A stretch of DNA of 64,000 nucleotides from the NCBI RefSeq assembly GCF_011762225.1, contig NZ_JAASQI010000009.1, positions 62,001-126,000 on the forward strand, in the 5' to 3' direction. Each line of letters begins with the position of its first letter. The stretch's first letter is position 1. Position numbers and translations under genes: made by a program. Positions 25,534 to 34,240 of the stretch are shown here, one piece after another. Under the pieces are notes generated by a model, which was given only the letters and a program-made list of their open reading frames with translations, did no database searches and was not told the DNA's origin. This DNA is from Pseudochelatococcus lubricantis. GTDB lineage: Bacteria; Pseudomonadota; Alphaproteobacteria; Rhizobiales; Beijerinckiaceae.

Positions 25534-25927
<394 letters not shown>

Positions 25928-25930
25928 CAA

Positions 25931-25970
25931 GGCTGCGGATGCCGCGAGGCATCCGCAGCCTTATTTTTTC
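25931..25970 (+). terminator. Rho-independent terminator of rnpB
   Basis: GGCTGCGGATGCC and GGCATCCGCAGCC form a perfect 13-bp stem with a GCGA loop, followed by TTATTTTTTC. It starts three bases after the RNase P RNA. Confidence 0.92.
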
Positions 25971-26302
25971 GGCCGGACGTTTTTCTTTTTCATGGGATAG
26001 CGCGAATTTTTTCCGGAATGCGCGAAATCCGTGCCGATTCAACGGTTCATTAACCCTAACGCGGTTGTGATGGGGGTGGAAATCCCGGCCGCGGTGGCCG
26101 TGATTCCATTGACGACCATGGCATCCCATGATATCCCAAATCATCCCGTTCGCGATCGGCCGGACGCGGTTTGCCCATCGGGCGAATTGCCTTGCCGGCC
26201 AGCGCTTTCGCCCGGTGTTGCGGGCGCGCGTCGCGGTCGTGACGGCGGCCTTGTTGGTGAGGGCGGCGGATAACGCCGCGATCGGGCTGCGGCTCTGCGG
26301 AT
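25971..26302. other. Leader region of the dcw cluster
   Basis: No gene is credible in these 332 bases. It contains a sigma-70-like promoter and the MraZ-type repeat array at 26109-26148, and then about 150 bases of untranslated leader. A TTAACC half-site of the kind bound by CtrA lies at about 26051, without its partner half. Confidence 0.5.
26109..26148 (+). promoter_or_regulatory. dcw promoter overlapped by candidate MraZ operator
   Basis: Four pentamers recur with an exact 10-base period: GACCA (26114-26118), TCCCA (26124-26128), TCCCA (26134-26138) and TCCCG (26144-26148). On the other strand they read TGGGN separated by 5-base spacers, the arrangement reported for the E. coli MraZ operator. 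A promoter-like pair overlaps them: TTGACG (26109-26114) and TATCCC (26132-26137) with 17-base spacing. MraZ is the first protein of the cluster, so autoregulation is likely. Confidence 0.6.
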
Positions 26303-26797
26303 ATGGGCTTCATGGATCGGTTCGTATCCAACTTCACCAACCGGCTGGACGCCAAGGGGCGGGTGTCGATCCCCGCGTCGTTCCGGGCGGTGCTGGCGCG
26401 GGACGGTTTCGAGGGGCTTTACGTGCATCCGGCTCTGGACAGCCCGGCGCTCGACGCCGGGGGCAACCTTCTGTTGCGGGAGATCGATGGGCTGCTGTCG
26501 ACGCTTCCGCCCTATTCGGACGAGCGCGACCATCTGTCGACGGCGCTGCTCGGCACGAGCGAGATTCTCAAGGTGGACCCGGAAGGGCGCATCATCCTGA
26601 CGGAAGGGCTGCGCGAGCATGCGGGCCTGACGCAGGCGGTGACCTTCGTGGGGCACGGGTACAAGTTCCAGATGTGGGAGCCGGAGCGCTTCCGCGCGCA
26701 CCTCGACGCGGCGCGGGAGAAGGTGCGGGCGTTGAAGAAGGCGCTCGGCGGACAATCCGGCGTGCCAGCCGCGGTTTCGGGAGCGCGGGAACGATGA
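26303..26797 (+). CDS. mraZ: Transcriptional regulator MraZ
   Basis: DNA-binding protein with two SpoVT/AbrB-like halves that represses the dcw cluster in enterobacteria. It has 164 residues. The first half carries [19 protein letters not shown] (about 10-28), the conserved DxKGRVxxP signature. The second carries [22 protein letters not shown] (about 86-107), the matching repeat. A basic C-terminal tail of about 20 residues is longer than in E. coli MraZ. Its stop overlaps the rsmH start (ATGA). An in-frame ATG at 26312 is an alternative start; neither has a strong ribosome-binding site. Confidence 0.95.
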
Positions 26798-27834
26798 CGG
26801 GTCGCGACGACGGCCCGGCCGGCGTCGCAGGCGGACCGGCCCGTCACGTTCCCGTGCTTCTGGGGGAGGTGCTCGCAGCGCTCGCCCCGCGCGACGGCGG
26901 CCTCTACCTCGACGGCACTTTCGGCGCGGGCGGCTATACGTCCGCCATCCTCGCCGTTCCCGGCGCGCGGGTCATCGCGCTCGACCGCGATCCCGACGCG
27001 ATCGCCGCAGGTGCGCCGCTCGTCGCGGCGGCGGGCGGGCGGCTCGCGCTGGTGGAAACGGTCTTCGGCGCCATGGAGGCGGCGGCGCGCGGGCAGGGCG
27101 CGGATCGCCTCGACGGCGTTGTGCTCGATATCGGCGTGTCCTCCATGCAGATCGACGAGGGCGAGCGCGGCTTCTCGCTGCGCTTCGACGGCCCGCTCGA
27201 CATGCGCATGGCGCAGGCGGGCGAGAGCGCGGCCGAGGTGGTCAATACGGCGGATGAGGCGCTGCTTGCCGATATCATCTACAATTTCGGCGAGGAGCGG
27301 CGCGCGCGCGCCGTGGCGCGGGCCATCGTGGAGCGGCGGGCGGCGGCGCCCATCGCGACGACGAAGGAACTCGCCGATCTCGTCGCATCCGTCGTCTGGG
27401 CCGAGCCGCACGGGCCGCATCCGGCGACCCGCACGTTCCAGGCGTTGCGCATCTATGTCAACGACGAACTCGGCGAACTCGCGCGGGCGCTGCATGCCGC
27501 CGAGCGCCTGCTGCGGCCGGGCGGAAGGCTGGCCGTGGTGACCTTTCATTCACTGGAAGATCGTATCGTCAAGCAGTTCCTGGCCCGCCGCGCGGGCCGC
27601 GCCGGCGGCGGCTCGCGCCATCTGCCCGAGGAAGCGGGCGAGGCGCCGACCTTCCGGCTCGTCACCCGCGGCGCGGTGGCGCCGTCCGAGGCTGAATGCC
27701 GCGCCAACCCGCGCGCGCGTTCGGCCAAGCTGCGGGCGGCCGAGCGCACCGACGCGCCGGCACGGGAAGAGGATGAATCGGTGATGTCGCTGGCTACGTT
27801 GCCGGAGCGGCGTTTTCGCAAGAGGGGGCGGTGA
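26794..27834 (+). CDS. rsmH: 16S rRNA (cytosine(1402)-N(4))-methyltransferase
   Basis: Methylates N4 of C1402 in the decoding centre of 16S rRNA with S-adenosylmethionine (also called MraW). The 346-residue protein starts [10 protein letters not shown]. It shows [15 protein letters not shown] (about 18-32), the SAM loop [10 protein letters not shown], the ALDRDPDAI motif, [13 protein letters not shown], and GPLDMRM. The C-terminal [13 protein letters not shown] is diagnostic. The open frame continues upstream through mraZ; the start at 26794 matches the family and overlaps the mraZ stop. Confidence 0.97.
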
Positions 27835-28223
27835 TGCTGGTACGTCTGCTGCACGTCCTGGCGGTGTTGGCGCTGATCGGCTCGGCCGGCTACGCCTATT
27901 CGATCAAGTACGAATCGATTTTCTATGCCGAGAAGCTGTCCAAGCTGAAGGCGCAAATCCAGCGCGAGAAGGATGCCATCGCCGCCTCCCGCGCCGACTG
28001 GCAGTTTCATGTGCGTCCCGACCGCCTGACCGTGCTCGCGGGCAAGTATCTCGACACGCAGCCGCTCCAGATCGGGCAGATCGTGCGTTTCGCGGATATC
28101 CCGGAGCGCCGGGCGAAAGTGGACGAGATCGGCAAGAAGCTTGAGTCGCTGGGACTGTCGATGTCCACCAGCACGCCCTCCGGCCCGCAGGGCGGGCGGG
28201 CGGGCTCGACGGCGACCCCGTGA
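27834..28223 (+). CDS. ftsL: Cell division protein FtsL-like
   Basis: Small bitopic divisome protein. It has 129 residues: a short cytoplasmic start, one membrane helix (about 3-22) and a periplasmic coiled-coil stretch (IFYAEKLSKLKAQIQREKD region, about 31-60). A segment RPDRLTVLAGKYLDTQPL, typical of alphaproteobacterial FtsL, follows. The name rests on position between rsmH and ftsI and on this topology, because FtsL sequences diverge fast. The ATG at 27834 shares one base with the rsmH stop; a GTG at 27831 is the alternative. FtsL works with FtsB and FtsQ to activate FtsW/FtsI. Confidence 0.88.
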   Translation: MLVRLLHVLAVLALIGSAGYAYSIKYESIFYAEKLSKLKAQIQREKDAIAASRADWQFHVRPDRLTVLAGKYLDTQPLQIGQIVRFADIPERRAKVDEIGKKLESLGLSMSTSTPSGPQGGRAGSTATP

Positions 28224-28257
28224 GGCCCGACATGGAACGGATCGACGAGAGGGTGTC

Positions 28258-30060
28258 ATGACAGAGGCGATGGACGAGATGAACGGACGCGATGCCGCCG
28301 GCGCCGGCCCGCGGGGTATGCCCGTCTACGAGGAGGCGCCGCAGCCGCACCTCTCGCGCGGCGCGCGCCTGTGGCTGTTCGTGCGCGATCTCTTCCGCAT
28401 GCGGTCCGACCGCTCCGGCCAGCGGGTGACGCTGGTGGGGGCGTTCTTCGTCGTGCTGTTCGCCACGCTGATCGGCCGCCTGTCGTGGATGGCGATGCAT
28501 CCCAAGGCGCCGAACGAGTTCAGGGGCGGCACCACGGTGGCGGCGGCCCGTCCGGATATCATCGACCGCAACGGCGTCGTGCTCGCCACCGACATCAAGA
28601 CGGTGTCGGTATTCGCCGAGCCGCGCAACATCATCGACGCCGACGAGGCGACCGAGCTGCTGACCGCCGTCCTGCCCGATCTCGACGCGCGTGAACTGCG
28701 CGACAAGCTCAGTACCAGCAAGGGCTTCGTCTGGGTCAAGCGCCAGATCACGCCGCGCCAGCAGGCGGAGGTGCACCGTCTTGGCATTCCCGGCGTCGGC
28801 TTCGTGCCGGAGAACAAGCGCGTCTACCCGAACGGCCCCATTGGCGCGCACGTGCTCGGCTTCGCCAACGTGGACAACGAAGGCATCGCCGGCATCGAGA
28901 AATACATGGACAACCAGGGGCTGAAGGCGCTGGCCGGCTACGGCTTCGCCCGCTCCGCCGACGATCTGGAGCCGGTGCGCCTGTCGCTCGACCTGCGCGC
29001 CACGGCTGCGGCGCGCGACGAGCTGGTGAAGGGCCTGGCGTACTTCCGGGCGAAAGCGGCAGCCTCCCTCATCCTCGACGTGAACACGGGCGAGGTGGTT
29101 TCGCTCGTCTCGCTGCCCGACTACGATCCCAACAATCCTGTCGACGCATTGCAGCCCGACCGCATCAACCGCATGATCGTCGGCGTGTTCGAGATGGGCT
29201 CGACCTTCAAGGCGCTGACGCTGGCCATGGGCCTCGACTCCGGCAAGGCCAACATCAACTCCACCTACGACGCGCGCGGCGGCCTGCATTACGGCCGCTT
29301 CACCATCAAGGACTACCACGGCAAGAACCGCATTCTCAACGTGCCGGAAATCTTCATCTATTCGTCGAACATCGGCACTGCCCGCATGGCCCTGCAGCAG
29401 GGCGTGCCGGCGCACAAGGCGTTCCTCAAGAAGATGGGCCAGCTCGACCGCATGCGCACGGAAATGCCGGAAAGCTCCGCGCCGCTGCTGCCGCCCAACT
29501 GGGGCGAGCTGAACACCATCACCATCTCCTACGGCCACGGCCTCGCGGTGGCGCCCATGCAGGCGGCGGCGGCCGTCGGCGCGCTGGTGAACGGCGGGCA
29601 GCTCGTCAACCCCACCTTCCTGCTGCGCACGGAGCAGGAGGCGCGGGCGAACGCGCCGCAGGTCATCAAGCCCGAAACGAGCGAGGCCATGCGCTTCGTC
29701 ATGCGCCTCAACGCGACGAAGGGGTCGGCGCGCAAGGCCGATGTGCCGGGTTACTTCGTGGGCGGCAAGACGGGCACTGCGGACAAGGTCATCAACGGCC
29801 GCTACGCCAAGAACAAGAACTTCACCACCTTCATGACAGTGCTGCCGGCGGACGATCCCAAATACCTGTTCCTGACTGTCTACGACGAGCCGCAGGCAAC
29901 GGCGGACAGCTACGGCTACGCAACCGCCGCCTGGAACGCGGGCGTGACGACGGGCAAGATCATGGCGCGGGTGGCGCCGCTGCTCGGCCTGCCGCCGCGC
30001 TTCGATGAGCCGGCCAATCCGTTCCCCACCATGGCGCGGCTGGGCGCCTGGGGGCTCTGA
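28258..30060 (+). CDS. ftsI: Septal peptidoglycan transpeptidase FtsI (PBP3)
   Basis: Crosslinks septal peptidoglycan. The 600-residue protein has a cytoplasmic tail (1-55), one membrane anchor (about 57-78), a pedestal domain beginning with RPDIIDRNGVVLAT (about 98-111), and a penicillin-binding domain. The catalytic Ser315 is in the STFK tetrad (315-318), SSN lies further on, and KTGT starts at Lys504. The start ATG at 28258 follows GAGAGGG and sits 34 bases after the ftsL stop. It acts with FtsW at the division site. Confidence 0.97.
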   Translation: MTEAMDEMNGRDAAGAGPRGMPVYEEAPQPHLSRGARLWLFVRDLFRMRSDRSGQRVTLVGAFFVVLFATLIGRLSWMAMHPKAPNEFRGGTTVAAARPDIIDRNGVVLATDIKTVSVFAEPRNIIDADEATELLTAVLPDLDARELRDKLSTSKGFVWVKRQITPRQQAEVHRLGIPGVGFVPENKRVYPNGPIGAHVLGFANVDNEGIAGIEKYMDNQGLKALAGYGFARSADDLEPVRLSLDLRATAAARDELVKGLAYFRAKAAASLILDVNTGEVVSLVSLPDYDPNNPVDALQPDRINRMIVGVFEMGSTFKALTLAMGLDSGKANINSTYDARGGLHYGRFTIKDYHGKNRILNVPEIFIYSSNIGTARMALQQGVPAHKAFLKKMGQLDRMRTEMPESSAPLLPPNWGELNTITISYGHGLAVAPMQAAAAVGALVNGGQLVNPTFLLRTEQEARANAPQVIKPETSEAMRFVMRLNATKGSARKADVPGYFVGGKTGTADKVINGRYAKNKNFTTFMTVLPADDPKYLFLTVYDEPQATADSYGYATAAWNAGVTTGKIMARVAPLLGLPPRFDEPANPFPTMARLGAWGL

Positions 30061-30096
30061 CGTGCATGACGGGCGATGACCGTGGGAGGCTGTGAC

Positions 30097-31575
30097 ATGG
30101 CGGACAACGATCGCGGCGCGGCCGCCCTCGCCGAGCTGCTGCCGGGCGTCGCCGTTCCCGATATCCGGGTGACGGGGCTGCGCCTCGACTCGCGCGCTGT
30201 CGCTGCCGGTGACGTGTTCTTCGCCGTGCCGGGCAACCGGGCGGACGGCCTCGCCTTCGCTGCGGACGCGGCGGCGAAGGGCGCGGCCGCAGTCGTGGGG
30301 GAGGCCGCGCGTCCCGCTGTCCTGCCGCCCTCCGTCGCCTATGTTCAGGTCGCCGACGTGCGCCGGGCCGTGGCGCTGGCGGCAGCGAGGTTCTACCCCC
30401 GCCAGCCGGAGAGGATCGTCGCCGTCACCGGCACCAGCGGCAAGAGTTCCGTGGTGGATTTCACGCGCCAGATATTCCTGCGCGCCGGCCGCCAGGCGGC
30501 GAGCCTCGGCACCATCGGCGTCGTCGCGCCGTCCGGCGCGGTCTACGGCTCGCTGACGACGCCGGACAGCATCAGCCTGCACAAGACGCTCGACCAGCTC
30601 GCGGGCGAGGGCGTGACGCATCTGGCGTTCGAGGCGTCCTCCCACGGCCTCGACCAGCACCGGCTCGACGGTGTGCGCCTGACGGCGGCAGCCTTCACCA
30701 ATCTGGGGCGCGACCATCTCGACTACCATCCGGACATCGAATCCTATCTCGCGGCCAAGCTGCGGCTGTTCGCGGACCTGCTGCCCGACGGCGCGCCCGC
30801 CGTCGTCAACGCCGATTCGCCGGAGGCCGCGCGCGTGGCCGAGGTCGCGCGTCGCCGGGGCCTGCCGCTCGTCGGCGTCGGCAGGGCGGGCGGGGAGATC
30901 GCGCTGCTGAACGCGGCGCGCGAGGGCTTCGCGCAGCGCCTGACGCTCCGCCATGCGGGCGTGACCCGCGACATCCGCCTGCCGCTCGCGGGCGATTTCC
31001 AGGCCTCGAATGCGCTCGTCGCCGCCGGCCTCGCCATCGCGGCGGGGGAGGAGGCCGATGCCGTATTCTCCGCGCTGGAGACGCTTCAGGGCGTGCGGGG
31101 AAGGCTGGAGCGGGTCGCGGAGGTCAACGGCGCGCTCGTCGTGGTGGATTACGCCCACAAGCCCGATGCGCTGGGCGCCGTGCTCGACACCCTGCGCGGC
31201 TACGCGACGGGCCGGCTCGTCGTGGCGTTTGGCGCGGGCGGCGACCGCGACAGGGGCAAGCGGCCGCTGATGGGCGCCATCGCGGCGCGCAAGGCGGACG
31301 TCGCCATCGTCACCGACGACAATCCGCGTTCCGAGGAGCCGGCCGCCATCCGCGCGGCCATTCTGGCGGCGGCGCGCGAGGTGCCGGGCGCCGACGTGAT
31401 CGAGATCGGCGACCGTCTCGCGGCCATCCGCCACGGCGTGCGGCTGCTGCAACCGGGGGATATCTTCGTCGTGGCCGGAAAAGGCCATGAAACGGGCCAG
31501 ATCATCGGGTCAACCACGGTTCACTTTTCTGATCACGAGGCGGTGCTCGCCGCCGTCGCGGAGCTGACATCATGA
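30097..31575 (+). CDS. murE: UDP-MurNAc-tripeptide synthetase MurE
   Basis: Adds the third stem-peptide residue, here most likely meso-diaminopimelate, to UDP-MurNAc-L-Ala-D-Glu. The 492-residue protein has the Mur N-terminal domain, the ATP loop GTSGKSS (112-118), TTPDS, the conserved His in EASSHGLDQHRL and a C-terminal domain with DDNPRSEEP. The DNPR motif marks the meso-DAP-specific enzyme. The start at 30097 has GGGAGG 7 bases upstream and is preferred over the ATG at 30076. It overlaps murF by 4 bp. Confidence 0.97.
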   Translation: MADNDRGAAALAELLPGVAVPDIRVTGLRLDSRAVAAGDVFFAVPGNRADGLAFAADAAAKGAAAVVGEAARPAVLPPSVAYVQVADVRRAVALAAARFYPRQPERIVAVTGTSGKSSVVDFTRQIFLRAGRQAASLGTIGVVAPSGAVYGSLTTPDSISLHKTLDQLAGEGVTHLAFEASSHGLDQHRLDGVRLTAAAFTNLGRDHLDYHPDIESYLAAKLRLFADLLPDGAPAVVNADSPEAARVAEVARRRGLPLVGVGRAGGEIALLNAAREGFAQRLTLRHAGVTRDIRLPLAGDFQASNALVAAGLAIAAGEEADAVFSALETLQGVRGRLERVAEVNGALVVVDYAHKPDALGAVLDTLRGYATGRLVVAFGAGGDRDRGKRPLMGAIAARKADVAIVTDDNPRSEEPAAIRAAILAAAREVPGADVIEIGDRLAAIRHGVRLLQPGDIFVVAGKGHETGQIIGSTTVHFSDHEAVLAAVAELTS

Positions 31576-33089
31576 CGCTTGCCATCCGGCCGGGGGATGC
31601 CGATTCGGTTGCCCCCCGCGCGCCCCAACCGCCCGCCGAGGTGCTCTGGTCGGGGCTCGACCTCATCCCGGCGCTGAACGCCCGTGCCGCCGACGGCCTG
31701 CCCGACCGGGTGACGGGCATCTCCATCGACACCCGCACGCTCGCGCCGGGCGACCTGTTCTTCGCCGTCAGGGGCGGCAACAGCGACGGCCATGCCTATG
31801 TCGCGCAGGCACTGGAAAACGGCGCGGCGGCGGCCGTCGTCGACGAGGCGCACGCGCCGCAGCTCCAAGGCACGGGGCCGCTCTACGTGGTGAAGGACGT
31901 GCTCGCCGCGCTCGTCTCGCTCGGCCGTGCCGCGCGTGCCCGCGCGCGCGCGCATGTCATCGCGGTCACCGGCTCCGTCGGCAAGACGAGCACGAAGGAG
32001 GCGCTGCGGATGGCGCTCGGCGGCCAGGGGCGCACGCATGCCTCCGCGGCCTCCTACAACAACCATTGGGGCGTGCCGCTGTCGCTGGCGCGCATGCCGC
32101 GGCGCACGCAATACGGCATCTTCGAGATCGGCATGAACGCGCCGGGCGAGGTGCGGCCGCTGTCGCAGATGGTGCGCCCGCACGTGGCCATCGTCACCAC
32201 GGTGGGGCCGGTTCACCTCGAATACTTCCCCTCCGTCGCGGCGATCGCGGATGCCAAGGGTGAGATTTTCGCGGGGCTTGAGCCGGGCGGCGTCGCCATC
32301 CTCAACCGCGACAACGACCAGTTCGAGCGGCTGAAGGCGCATGCGCTCGCCTCCCGCGCCGGGCGGATCGTTTCCTTCGGCGAGCATGAGCAGGCGGACG
32401 TGCGCGCCCAACGGATCATCCTGAAGCCGGAGATGACGGTGGTCGAGGCGCAGGTGTTCGGCGCGCCGGTGGTGTACCGCATCGGCTCGCCCGGGCGGCA
32501 TATCGCGCTCAACAGCCTCGCGGTGCTCGCGGCCGTTCAGGCGGTGGACGGCGACCTCGCGCTGGCGGCGCTGGCGCTCGGCCAGCTCGCTCCCCCCGAG
32601 GGGCGCGGCGAGCGCGTGCGGCTGTCCGCGCCCGGTGGCGAGTTCAGCGATCCGGAAGGCGCGTTCCTGCTGATCGACGAGAGCTACAACGCCAATCCGT
32701 CATCGATGACGGCGGCGCTCAACATGCTGGGGCAGGCGGACGTCGGCCTGCGCGGCAGGCGCATCGCGGTGCTCGCCGACATGCTGGAGCTGGGTGCCGA
32801 CAGCGCCGGCCTGCACGCGGCGCTGAACGGCCCCATCGTGGACAACGATATCGATCTCGTCTTCGCGGCGGGCCCGGCCATGCATCACCTGTGGCGCGCC
32901 CTTGCACCCGAGACGCGCGGGGCGTATGCCGAAACGCCGGCCGAACTTGAGGGCGCTGTCCTGCGCACCGTCCGCGCCGGCGATGCCGTCATGGTCAAGG
33001 GATCGAACGGCACGAAAGTGTCGCGCATCGTCGCGGCGCTGAAGAACCATTTCCCGGCGGTGAACACGAATGGCGCCCGCACCGCCTGA
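31572..33089 (+). CDS. murF: UDP-MurNAc-tripeptide-D-alanyl-D-alanine ligase MurF
   Basis: Adds D-Ala-D-Ala to the UDP-MurNAc tripeptide. It has 505 residues. The ATP loop [12 protein letters not shown] lies at about 136-147, [14 protein letters not shown] follows, and [10 protein letters not shown] leads to VGPVHLEYF. The C-terminal domain shows [13 protein letters not shown] with the family's ESYNAN motif. Its ATG overlaps the murE TGA, indicating coupled translation. D-Ala-D-Ala must come from a Ddl enzyme not encoded in this cluster. Confidence 0.97.
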
Positions 33090-33136
33090 CCGGCAATCGG
33101 AACAGCAACTTCAGGGCTGACGGAGACCGACAGCGC

Positions 33137-34240
33137 ATGTTTATCTGGCTTGCGGAACTGAGTGCCTCGGTGCCGGCGCTCAACGTGTTCCGCTACATCA
33201 CCTTCCGCACCGGGGCGGCGACCGCCACCGCGATGTTCTTCGTCTTCATGTTCGGCCCTGCCATCATCGCCTCGCTGCGGGTGCGGCAGGGCAAGGGCCA
33301 GCCGATCCGCACCGACGGACCGCAGTCGCACCTCGCCAAGAAGGGCACGCCGACCATGGGCGGCCTGATGATCCTCTCCGGCGTGCTGGTCTCCGCGCTG
33401 TTGTGGGCGAACCTCGCCAATCCCTATGTCTGGGTGGTGCTGTTCGTCACGCTTGGCTTCGGCGCCATCGGCTTCTATGACGACTATCTGAAGGTCACCA
33501 AGCAGTCGCACAAGGGCTTTTCGGGCCGCCTGCGGCTCGGCATCGAGGGGCTGATCGGGTTCGTCGCCTGCGTCGTCATCGTGCTGGTGAGCCGCGAGAC
33601 GCTGCCGCCGGCGCGGGAGCTGCTGGCGACGTCGGTGGCGATCCCCTTTGTCAAGGATCTGCTGATAGATCTCGGCTGGTTCTTCGCCGTGTTCGGCACG
33701 CTCGTCATCGTGGGCGCGGGCAACGCCGTCAACCTCACGGATGGCCTCGACGGCCTCGCCATCGTGCCGGTGATGATCGCTGCCGCGACCTTCGGCTTCA
33801 TCGCCTATCTCGTCGGCAACGCCATCTTCGCCAACTACCTGCAGCTCAACTTCGTGCAGGGCGTGGGCGAGCTTTCGGTGCTTTGCGGCGCGCTGATCGG
33901 GGCGGGCATCGGCTTCCTGTGGTTCAACGCGCCGCCCGCGCAGATCTTCATGGGCGACACCGGCTCGCTGGCGCTCGGCGGCATGCTGGGGACGATCGCG
34001 GTCGCGACCAAGCACGAGATCGTGCTCGCCATCGTCGGCGGCCTGTTCGTGCTGGAGGCGCTGTCCGTCATCGTGCAGGTGGCTTCCTTCAAGCTCACGG
34101 GCAAGCGCGTGTTCAAGATGGCGCCCATCCATCATCACTTCGAGCAACTCGGCTGGACGGAGCCGCAGGTCGTGATCCGCTTCTGGATCATCGCCGTGGT
34201 GCTGGCGCTCGTCGGCCTCTCCACGCTGAAGCTGCGGTAG
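33137..34240 (+). CDS. mraY: Phospho-N-acetylmuramoyl-pentapeptide transferase MraY
   Basis: Makes lipid I by moving phospho-MurNAc-pentapeptide onto undecaprenyl phosphate in the inner membrane. The 367-residue protein has ten predicted helices. Signatures are [13 protein letters not shown] (about 71-83), FYDDYLKV (about 114), [13 protein letters not shown] and the acidic/His cluster MAPIHHHFE (about 331). Its TAG stop lies inside the start of a palindromic repeat (34238 onward) that separates it from murD. Confidence 0.97.

Follow-up and report, generated by a model that had tools for sequence, protein, structure and literature searches.

Conserved inverted boxes embedded in the dcw promoter upstream of mraZ: a putative operator of MraZ in Alphaproteobacteria

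What is the array of four short words, repeated every ten bases, that lies over the promoter of the dcw cluster in the window, the 64,000-nt stretch of Pseudochelatococcus lubricantis DNA analyzed here, and does it belong to the promoter itself, to MraZ or to another factor? An earlier note had read the array as a four-part MraZ operator overlapping a TTGACG-17-TATCCC promoter. Reading the sequence anew, we find the words exact to the base, with GACCA, TCCCA, TCCCA and TCCCG starting at 26114, 26124, 26134 and 26144, and the overlap with the promoter is as claimed. The operator reading appears well supported by the conservation of the element in relatives and by the way in which element and mraZ go together, and we put at about 90% the probability that 26109-26148 is the dcw promoter fused with an operator of MraZ, which would bind it as a ring and negatively autoregulate its own operon. 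The features of the locus are:

26050 to 26055, plus strand: TTAACC, CtrA-like half-site, at -59 from the -35 element (about 60 bp upstream)
26109 to 26114, plus strand: TTGACG, -35 element of the dcw promoter; its final base doubles as the first base of box 1
26114 to 26118, minus strand: TGGTC, box 1 of the putative MraZ operator; relatives mostly have TGGGC, TGGTC or TGGGG
26124 to 26128, minus strand: TGGGA, box 2 of the putative operator, within the promoter spacer; plus-strand CCA in 27/27 aligned loci
26129 to 26131, plus strand: TGA, extended -10 (TGn); T in 27/27 and G in 26/27 loci, third base near random
26132 to 26137, plus strand: TATCCC, -10 element, 17 bp after TTGACG; its last four bases are also within box 3
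26134 to 26138, minus strand: TGGGA, box 3 of the putative operator; plus-strand CCA in 27/27 aligned loci
26144 to 26148, minus strand: CGGGA, box 4 of the putative operator, over the predicted transcription start; from sequence and alignment
26144 to 26311, plus strand: dcw mRNA, predicted 5' leader of about 168 nt, placed between the start site expected from the -10 and the conserved MDRFVSNF start
26312 to 26797, plus strand: mraZ, putative DNA-binding regulator (PF02381, 54 bits); alternative ATG at 26303
26794 to 27834, plus strand: rsmH (mraW; PF01795, 316 bits); its start overlaps the mraZ stop (ATGA)
27831 to 34240, plus strand: further dcw genes, namely an ftsL-like small protein, ftsI-like, murE-like, murF-like and mraY

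MraZ belongs to a family of ring-forming AbrB-like proteins, and DxxxR is its DNA-binding signature. The window protein carries this signature, with D13, K15, G16 and R17 unchanged across an alignment of 31 sequences, that of E. coli among them, and it exceeds the PF02381 cut-off of 23 bits, the best stretch being the second repeat at residues 86-136; the best NCBIfam MraZ model scores 161.1 bits against a cut-off of 162, and five other models fall further under theirs. Among the best 80 of 141 named matches, the closest MraZ genes are those of Chelatococcus, Microvirga, Salinarimonas, Camelimonas and Alsobacter (73-88% identical), which puts the host among the Hyphomicrobiales, probably within a broadly defined Beijerinckiaceae. 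We take ATG 26312 (MDRFVSNF...) rather than 26303 as the most likely mraZ start because most relatives begin MraZ at an M/L/V-D-R-F-like residue aligned there. Further downstream, Pfam recognizes a transpeptidase, two Mur ligases and the MraY signature in 27831-34240; the murE-like and murF-like assignments come from gene order, and the ftsL-like small protein, which has no Pfam match, is named from its position alone. Upstream, RNase P RNA occupies 25536-25928 (Rfam), and a stem resembling a terminator comes next, at 25929-25962.

Read on the minus strand, the array is CGGGA-N5-TGGGA-N5-TGGGA-N5-TGGTC, that is, at least three direct repeats of a TGGGN-type box (two of the four being exact TGGGN) with 5-nt spacers and a 10-bp period, in an element that lies before the mraZ ATG. 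The E. coli MraZ operator, reportedly described by Eraso et al. in 2014, lies upstream of mraZ and has TGGGN boxes with 5-nt spacers, and in the K-12 sequence we read TGGGA-N5-TGGGG-N5-TGGGA before mraZ, with the same spacers as here. A sequence-only operator model built from our alignment A1 (30 loci) gives 51.1 bits at the array in an unfiltered scan of the window vs at most 3.5 bits anywhere else, a score to be read knowing that the window's own array is one of the 30 sites behind the model. When the whole 4.63-Mb genome was scanned for three TGGGA boxes with up to two mismatches, the array matched in two registers (one and two mismatches) and one further place matched with two mismatches; a control pattern also had one match. 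No second such array and no further MraZ target was found in this genome by the pattern scan or by the model scan, in which 150 of 348 first-look candidates were scored. Only 3 of 1,600 Markov-shuffled upstream regions gave a best three-box score of at least 13/15 when both strands were counted, and 79 of 80 named relatives score 13 or 14 of 15 on the antisense strand, these loci being the best 80 of 141 and non-independent, with many from Microvirga; the box array is not due to chance.

The earlier note had named absence of the boxes from close relatives as one observation that would speak against an operator. When each strand was scored for three TGGGA boxes with a 10-bp period, we found antisense scores of 12-15 out of 15 in all 30 MraZ loci (the window's own and 29 relatives) and sense scores of 8 to 12; the operator reading passes this check. 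A sense-strand array near the window promoter was considered and rejected, the best sense score being 9/15 vs 14/15 for antisense. TTGAC stands in constant register to the boxes in 25/30 loci, the exceptions being three loci shifted by one base (L019, L022 and L026), one with TTGTG (L008) and one with TTGCC (L020); the majority sequence of A1 is TCCATTGACGCCCATANNNTCCCATGNTATCCCAAATCATCCCG. In the 27 loci used for column statistics, from which the three shifted ones were omitted, pairwise identity is 75% over the 40-bp element vs 26-29% in the six flanks computed (0.259-0.291), and box columns carry 1.49 bits of information compared with 0.85 in other columns. The -35 reads TTG in 27/27 loci, followed by A in 25/27 and C in 26/27, and the first two bases of the -10 (T 26/27, A 27/27) are conserved although they lie inside an inter-box spacer; positions 26121-26123 and the base between TG and TA are near random. 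To judge from these columns, promoter and operator are both visible in the conservation pattern and have bases in common. The extended -10 form, TGA ahead of the -10, is a feature absent from the earlier note. A strict scan found no consensus sigma-70 promoter at the site, the -10 being a poor sigma-70 match, and our call of the dcw promoter therefore rests on conservation.

The orientation of the boxes, opposite to that of the gene, had been flagged in the earlier note, and it recurs across the class. We scored 141 class loci with a neutral box, [GA]TGG[GT], taken three times in the 450 bp before the gene; the array is antisense to mraZ in 132, unclear in 9 and sense in none. By sample, there are 28 antisense and 2 unclear loci among the order relatives (n = 30), 22 and 3 in the class sample (25 located of 29), 3 and 3 in the model-negative class sample (6 located of 16, with 4 of 20 regions dropped as duplicates) and 79 and 1 among the named relatives (n = 80, the best 80 of 141). 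Markov-shuffled controls of these regions, other classes included, gave a call in 36/1,610 cases (10/300, 6/250, 3/60, 17/800 and 0/200). In other classes of the phylum, by contrast, 14 of 20 located loci (of 30) are sense, 6 unclear and none antisense. Loci without a located start were left unscored (4/29 class, 10/16 model-negative and 10/30 other-class); for five such other-class loci (L207, L208, L212, L218 and L222) the sense score is higher by at least 2 with the boxes within 80 nt of an open frame, and for L205 it is higher by at least 2 with the boxes 254 nt before the frame. At L220 and L221, sense boxes at the frame start have the same score as antisense boxes lying further upstream, and L214 and L219 were uncounted, the chosen frame being not convincingly MraZ. 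In the window's class, which we take as Alphaproteobacteria because of its named relatives, the boxes share bases with the -35 and the extended -10, and on sequence grounds an antisense array ahead of about +1 is the common arrangement in this class.

The known MraZ sites share parts of this design and differ in others. The E. coli boxes are sense; they occupy the stretch from 43 to 19 nt ahead of the ATG, beyond the -10 (placed by eye), and surround the start site, which is reported 38 nt before mraZ (excerpts of PMC5089854). This sense-strand arrangement after the -10, usual but not defining, is not that of the window, where four antisense boxes extend over -35 to about +1, ahead of a long leader. 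The Burkholderia cenocepacia MraZ site has four 7-nt repeats with 3-nt spacers, again giving a 10-nt period, and a gel-shift with MraZ is reported for a fragment containing it, but its reported position is past the -10, where it covers the start site (excerpts of PMC7761207). In Mollicutes, AAAGTGKN3 sites also precede mraZ as direct repeats every 10 nt, but differ from the window array in box sequence (excerpts of PMC5282649 and PMC8475190). In open-licence PubMed Central papers, a collection that leaves subscription journals mostly outside, we found no description of an MraZ operator in Alphaproteobacteria or in inverted orientation, and the novelty of such an operator is provisional.

The leader invites comparison with other alphaproteobacteria. 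It had been noted as long, at about 155 nt; the length class holds, and the figure becomes about 168 nt, counted from the predicted start near 26144, because mraZ most likely begins at ATG 26312 and not at 26303. Long leaders recur in the 80 named relatives, where the MraZ match begins 132-264 nt after the -35 (median 186), and a 5' UTR of 170 nt is reported for Sinorhizobium meliloti mraZ (excerpts of PMC5089854). The same source describes a Rhodobacter sphaeroides mraZ leader that gives rise to the sRNA UpsM, a long leader as here, of 268 nt and with a Rho-independent terminator, whereas the window leader has a weak terminator-like stem of 6 pairs at 26235-26250, whose role might be like that of the UpsM terminator although it is far weaker. 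The words TGGG, repeat and binding site are absent from the text of the UpsM paper (PMC5089854). No Rfam family reaches its gathering score in the window leader, and a strongly folded leader was rejected, the z-score of -1.69 for 26144-26330 being unconvincing.

The element is found where MraZ is found. In the window genome and its relatives up to order, PF02381 is present in 40/60 genomes; the operator model matches all 40 at E<1e-4, upstream of mraZ, and, with stricter filters in force, none of the 20 MraZ-negative genomes at E<0.01, the only weak matches there being in G002, G042 and G053 (E 0.04-0.1). A held-out test on MraZ-bearing genomes outside A1 gave matches in 10/10, upstream and on the gene's strand. 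Within a class sample of 289 genomes (E<=0.01), 192 have both, 49 MraZ only, 4 the element only and 44 neither, which corresponds to a match in 192/241 MraZ-positive vs 4/48 MraZ-negative genomes. "MraZ-less" here means by Pfam, which missed a true MraZ in G103, and for the 20 relatives also by one search with the window protein, which gave a single weak match (G054, E 0.009); eroded sites in such genomes may be missed because the genome scans were strictly filtered and first-look candidates scored in part. Strand and distance were compared in 58 of the 192 class genomes with both; in 57, the element lies on the same contig and strand as mraZ, 266-468 nt upstream of the Pfam match, and in the exception, G167, the two are on different contigs.

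The discordant genomes are of several kinds. Of the four with the element only, G103 does encode the MraZ that Pfam overlooked, G091 has its element beginning 118 bases from a contig end, and G190 bears a relic ahead of rsmH with no mraZ in between; G161 shows neither gene, and its element looks like chance. For the 49/241 MraZ-positive class genomes without a model match, we scored 20 upstream regions, with gene starts located in part of them: the antisense score is at least 13 in 10, 12 in 5, 11 in 2 and 8-9 in 3, and the sense score is at most 11. Several of these arrays stand well ahead of the gene or out of phase with the promoter. No array was seen in the upstream DNA of L229, L242 and L244 (L244 being a short stretch in which no gene frame was located). 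At L230 and L238 (G188 and G289, one family), TATAGGA-type boxes replace ATGGGA with the same 10-bp period before mraZ, possibly a joint change of MraZ specificity and operator. At L226, L233 and L241 (G092, G220 and G317, one family), antisense TGGG arrays stand about 420-440 nt before the Pfam-match anchor and the usual promoter phase is absent. A second operator match in G059 (C271:389-428, E 6.7e-5) is perhaps on another organism's contig, the genome being listed with 6% contamination.

Although rsmH is retained in 19/20 MraZ-less relatives, the element does not stay with it intact. Eroded relics are present in three genomes with rsmH and without mraZ: G002 (same genus), G004 and G190. Ahead of rsmH, G002 reads CTGACGGCCATTCTGTCCCATGACATCCGCAAGCAACCCC, in which the -35, box 1 and box 2 are recognizable and boxes 3 and 4 eroded. 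Over the 15 bp of boxes 3-4, the MraZ-bearing congeners G000 and G001 agree at 13/15 positions and G002 agrees with them at 10 and 9, whereas over the 85 bp upstream the corresponding values are 58/85 and, for G002, 65 and 67; these match counts, small as the numbers are, suggest that G002 kept the upstream DNA but not the operator half. G004 (79% complete) keeps a -35-like sequence, box 2 and box 4 and has lost box 3, and G190 keeps the -35, box 1 and box 2. The -10 position now reads CATCCG in G002, TATCGC in G004 and TATTTT in G190. No relic was recognized at the other rsmH loci of the MraZ-less relatives (19/20 rsmH loci scored, L113 left out).

Other words precede the promoter. GATTC at 26102-26106, two bases before the -35, is a GANTC, the CcrM methylation word; 30/80 named and 9/30 order relatives have a GANTC in the last 25 nt ahead of the -35, and 33/80 and 4/30 have one 75-50 nt before it. 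TTAACC, which we take to resemble a CtrA half-site, occurs 56 times at -64 to -61 from the -35 among 111 upstream regions. Itself or as its complement, it falls in the 25-bp bin 75-50 nt before the -35 in 58/80 named and 13/30 order loci, and in the two bins nearer the -35 in 0/80 and 0-1/30. Its neighbours are conserved in 71 aligned copies, TTACGNTTCATTAACCNTAA and then TCTCATG, in relatives that include L011, L016, L115, L119 and L127, and it is still present in mraZ-less G002. The word may mark a CtrA site or else another promoter; a CtrA motif is reported upstream of S. meliloti mraZ (excerpts of PMC3616915), and agrobacteria are reported to have secondary start sites for mraZ (excerpts of PMC10469942).

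In our model of the dcw promoter as an MraZ operator, the 10-bp period puts all four boxes on the same face of the helix, and neighboring subunits of an MraZ ring would contact them. Since the array spans -35 to about +1, the bound ring would keep RNA polymerase off the promoter by steric exclusion, and MraZ would thereby repress its own operon. The conserved 40 bp could instead be merely a strong core promoter (TTGAC-17-extended -10) in which the 10-bp boxes are incidental, a reading with which the near invariance of the -35 and TGnTA columns agrees. It sits poorly, however, with the conservation in 23-27 of 27 loci of the CCA of box 1, the CCA of box 2 and the CCC of box 4, all outside the hexamers and in the company of the near-random 26121-26123, and with a box 3 that forces a poor -10. 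The congeners that bear MraZ are more alike over boxes 3-4 than mraZ-less G002 is to them, the reverse of the upstream DNA, and the relic in G190 has acquired a different -10; we consider a promoter alone very improbable.

It might also be that another factor, for example a cell-cycle regulator, binds the array and that MraZ is only its neighbor. The CtrA-like and GANTC words upstream point in this direction, as does the enrichment of CenR at the Rhodobacter mraZ promoter, for which the authors report no motif and no loss in an inactive strain (excerpts of PMC9275681). Yet the element tracks mraZ and not rsmH, and its box sequence and 10-bp period agree with the array before E. coli mraZ, leaving this second factor with only a few percent of our credence. 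Somewhat easier to imagine, and still unlikely, is that MraZ acts here as an activator, contacting RNA polymerase from the inverted array: the phase to the -35 and -10 is fixed in most relatives, the -10 is weak, and MraZ of a mycoplasma is reported to show activating behavior. Against activation, both hexamers lie under the array, as is typical of repressor sites, and MraZ represses its operon in E. coli (Eraso 2014, quoted in PMC7761207) and is a repressor in M. genitalium, where its site occurs once (excerpts of PMC8475190).

Returning to repression by MraZ, we speculate, with slightly less than even confidence, that the operator was inverted and merged with the promoter on the stem of Alphaproteobacteria, so that a roadblock at the start site, of the E. 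coli type, became a direct competition with RNA polymerase and the promoter became tied to MraZ. Because of this proposed tie, box 3 would be free to drift after the loss of mraZ, together with the -10 that overlaps it, in the manner of G002, G004 and G190. If this is true, two proteins make use of much of the 40-bp element. The operon headed by MraZ is among the most conserved cell-division operons of bacteria, and the papers that we found describe the MraZ operator in few species. A class-wide inverted form embedded in the promoter would offer a defined footprinting target in Alphaproteobacteria, would make MraZ control predictable from sequence and would provide a clear-cut way to learn whether the direction of the boxes matters to a ring-shaped repressor. 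Finally, this promoter may be where control of the division cluster connects with cell-cycle inputs of the CtrA type.
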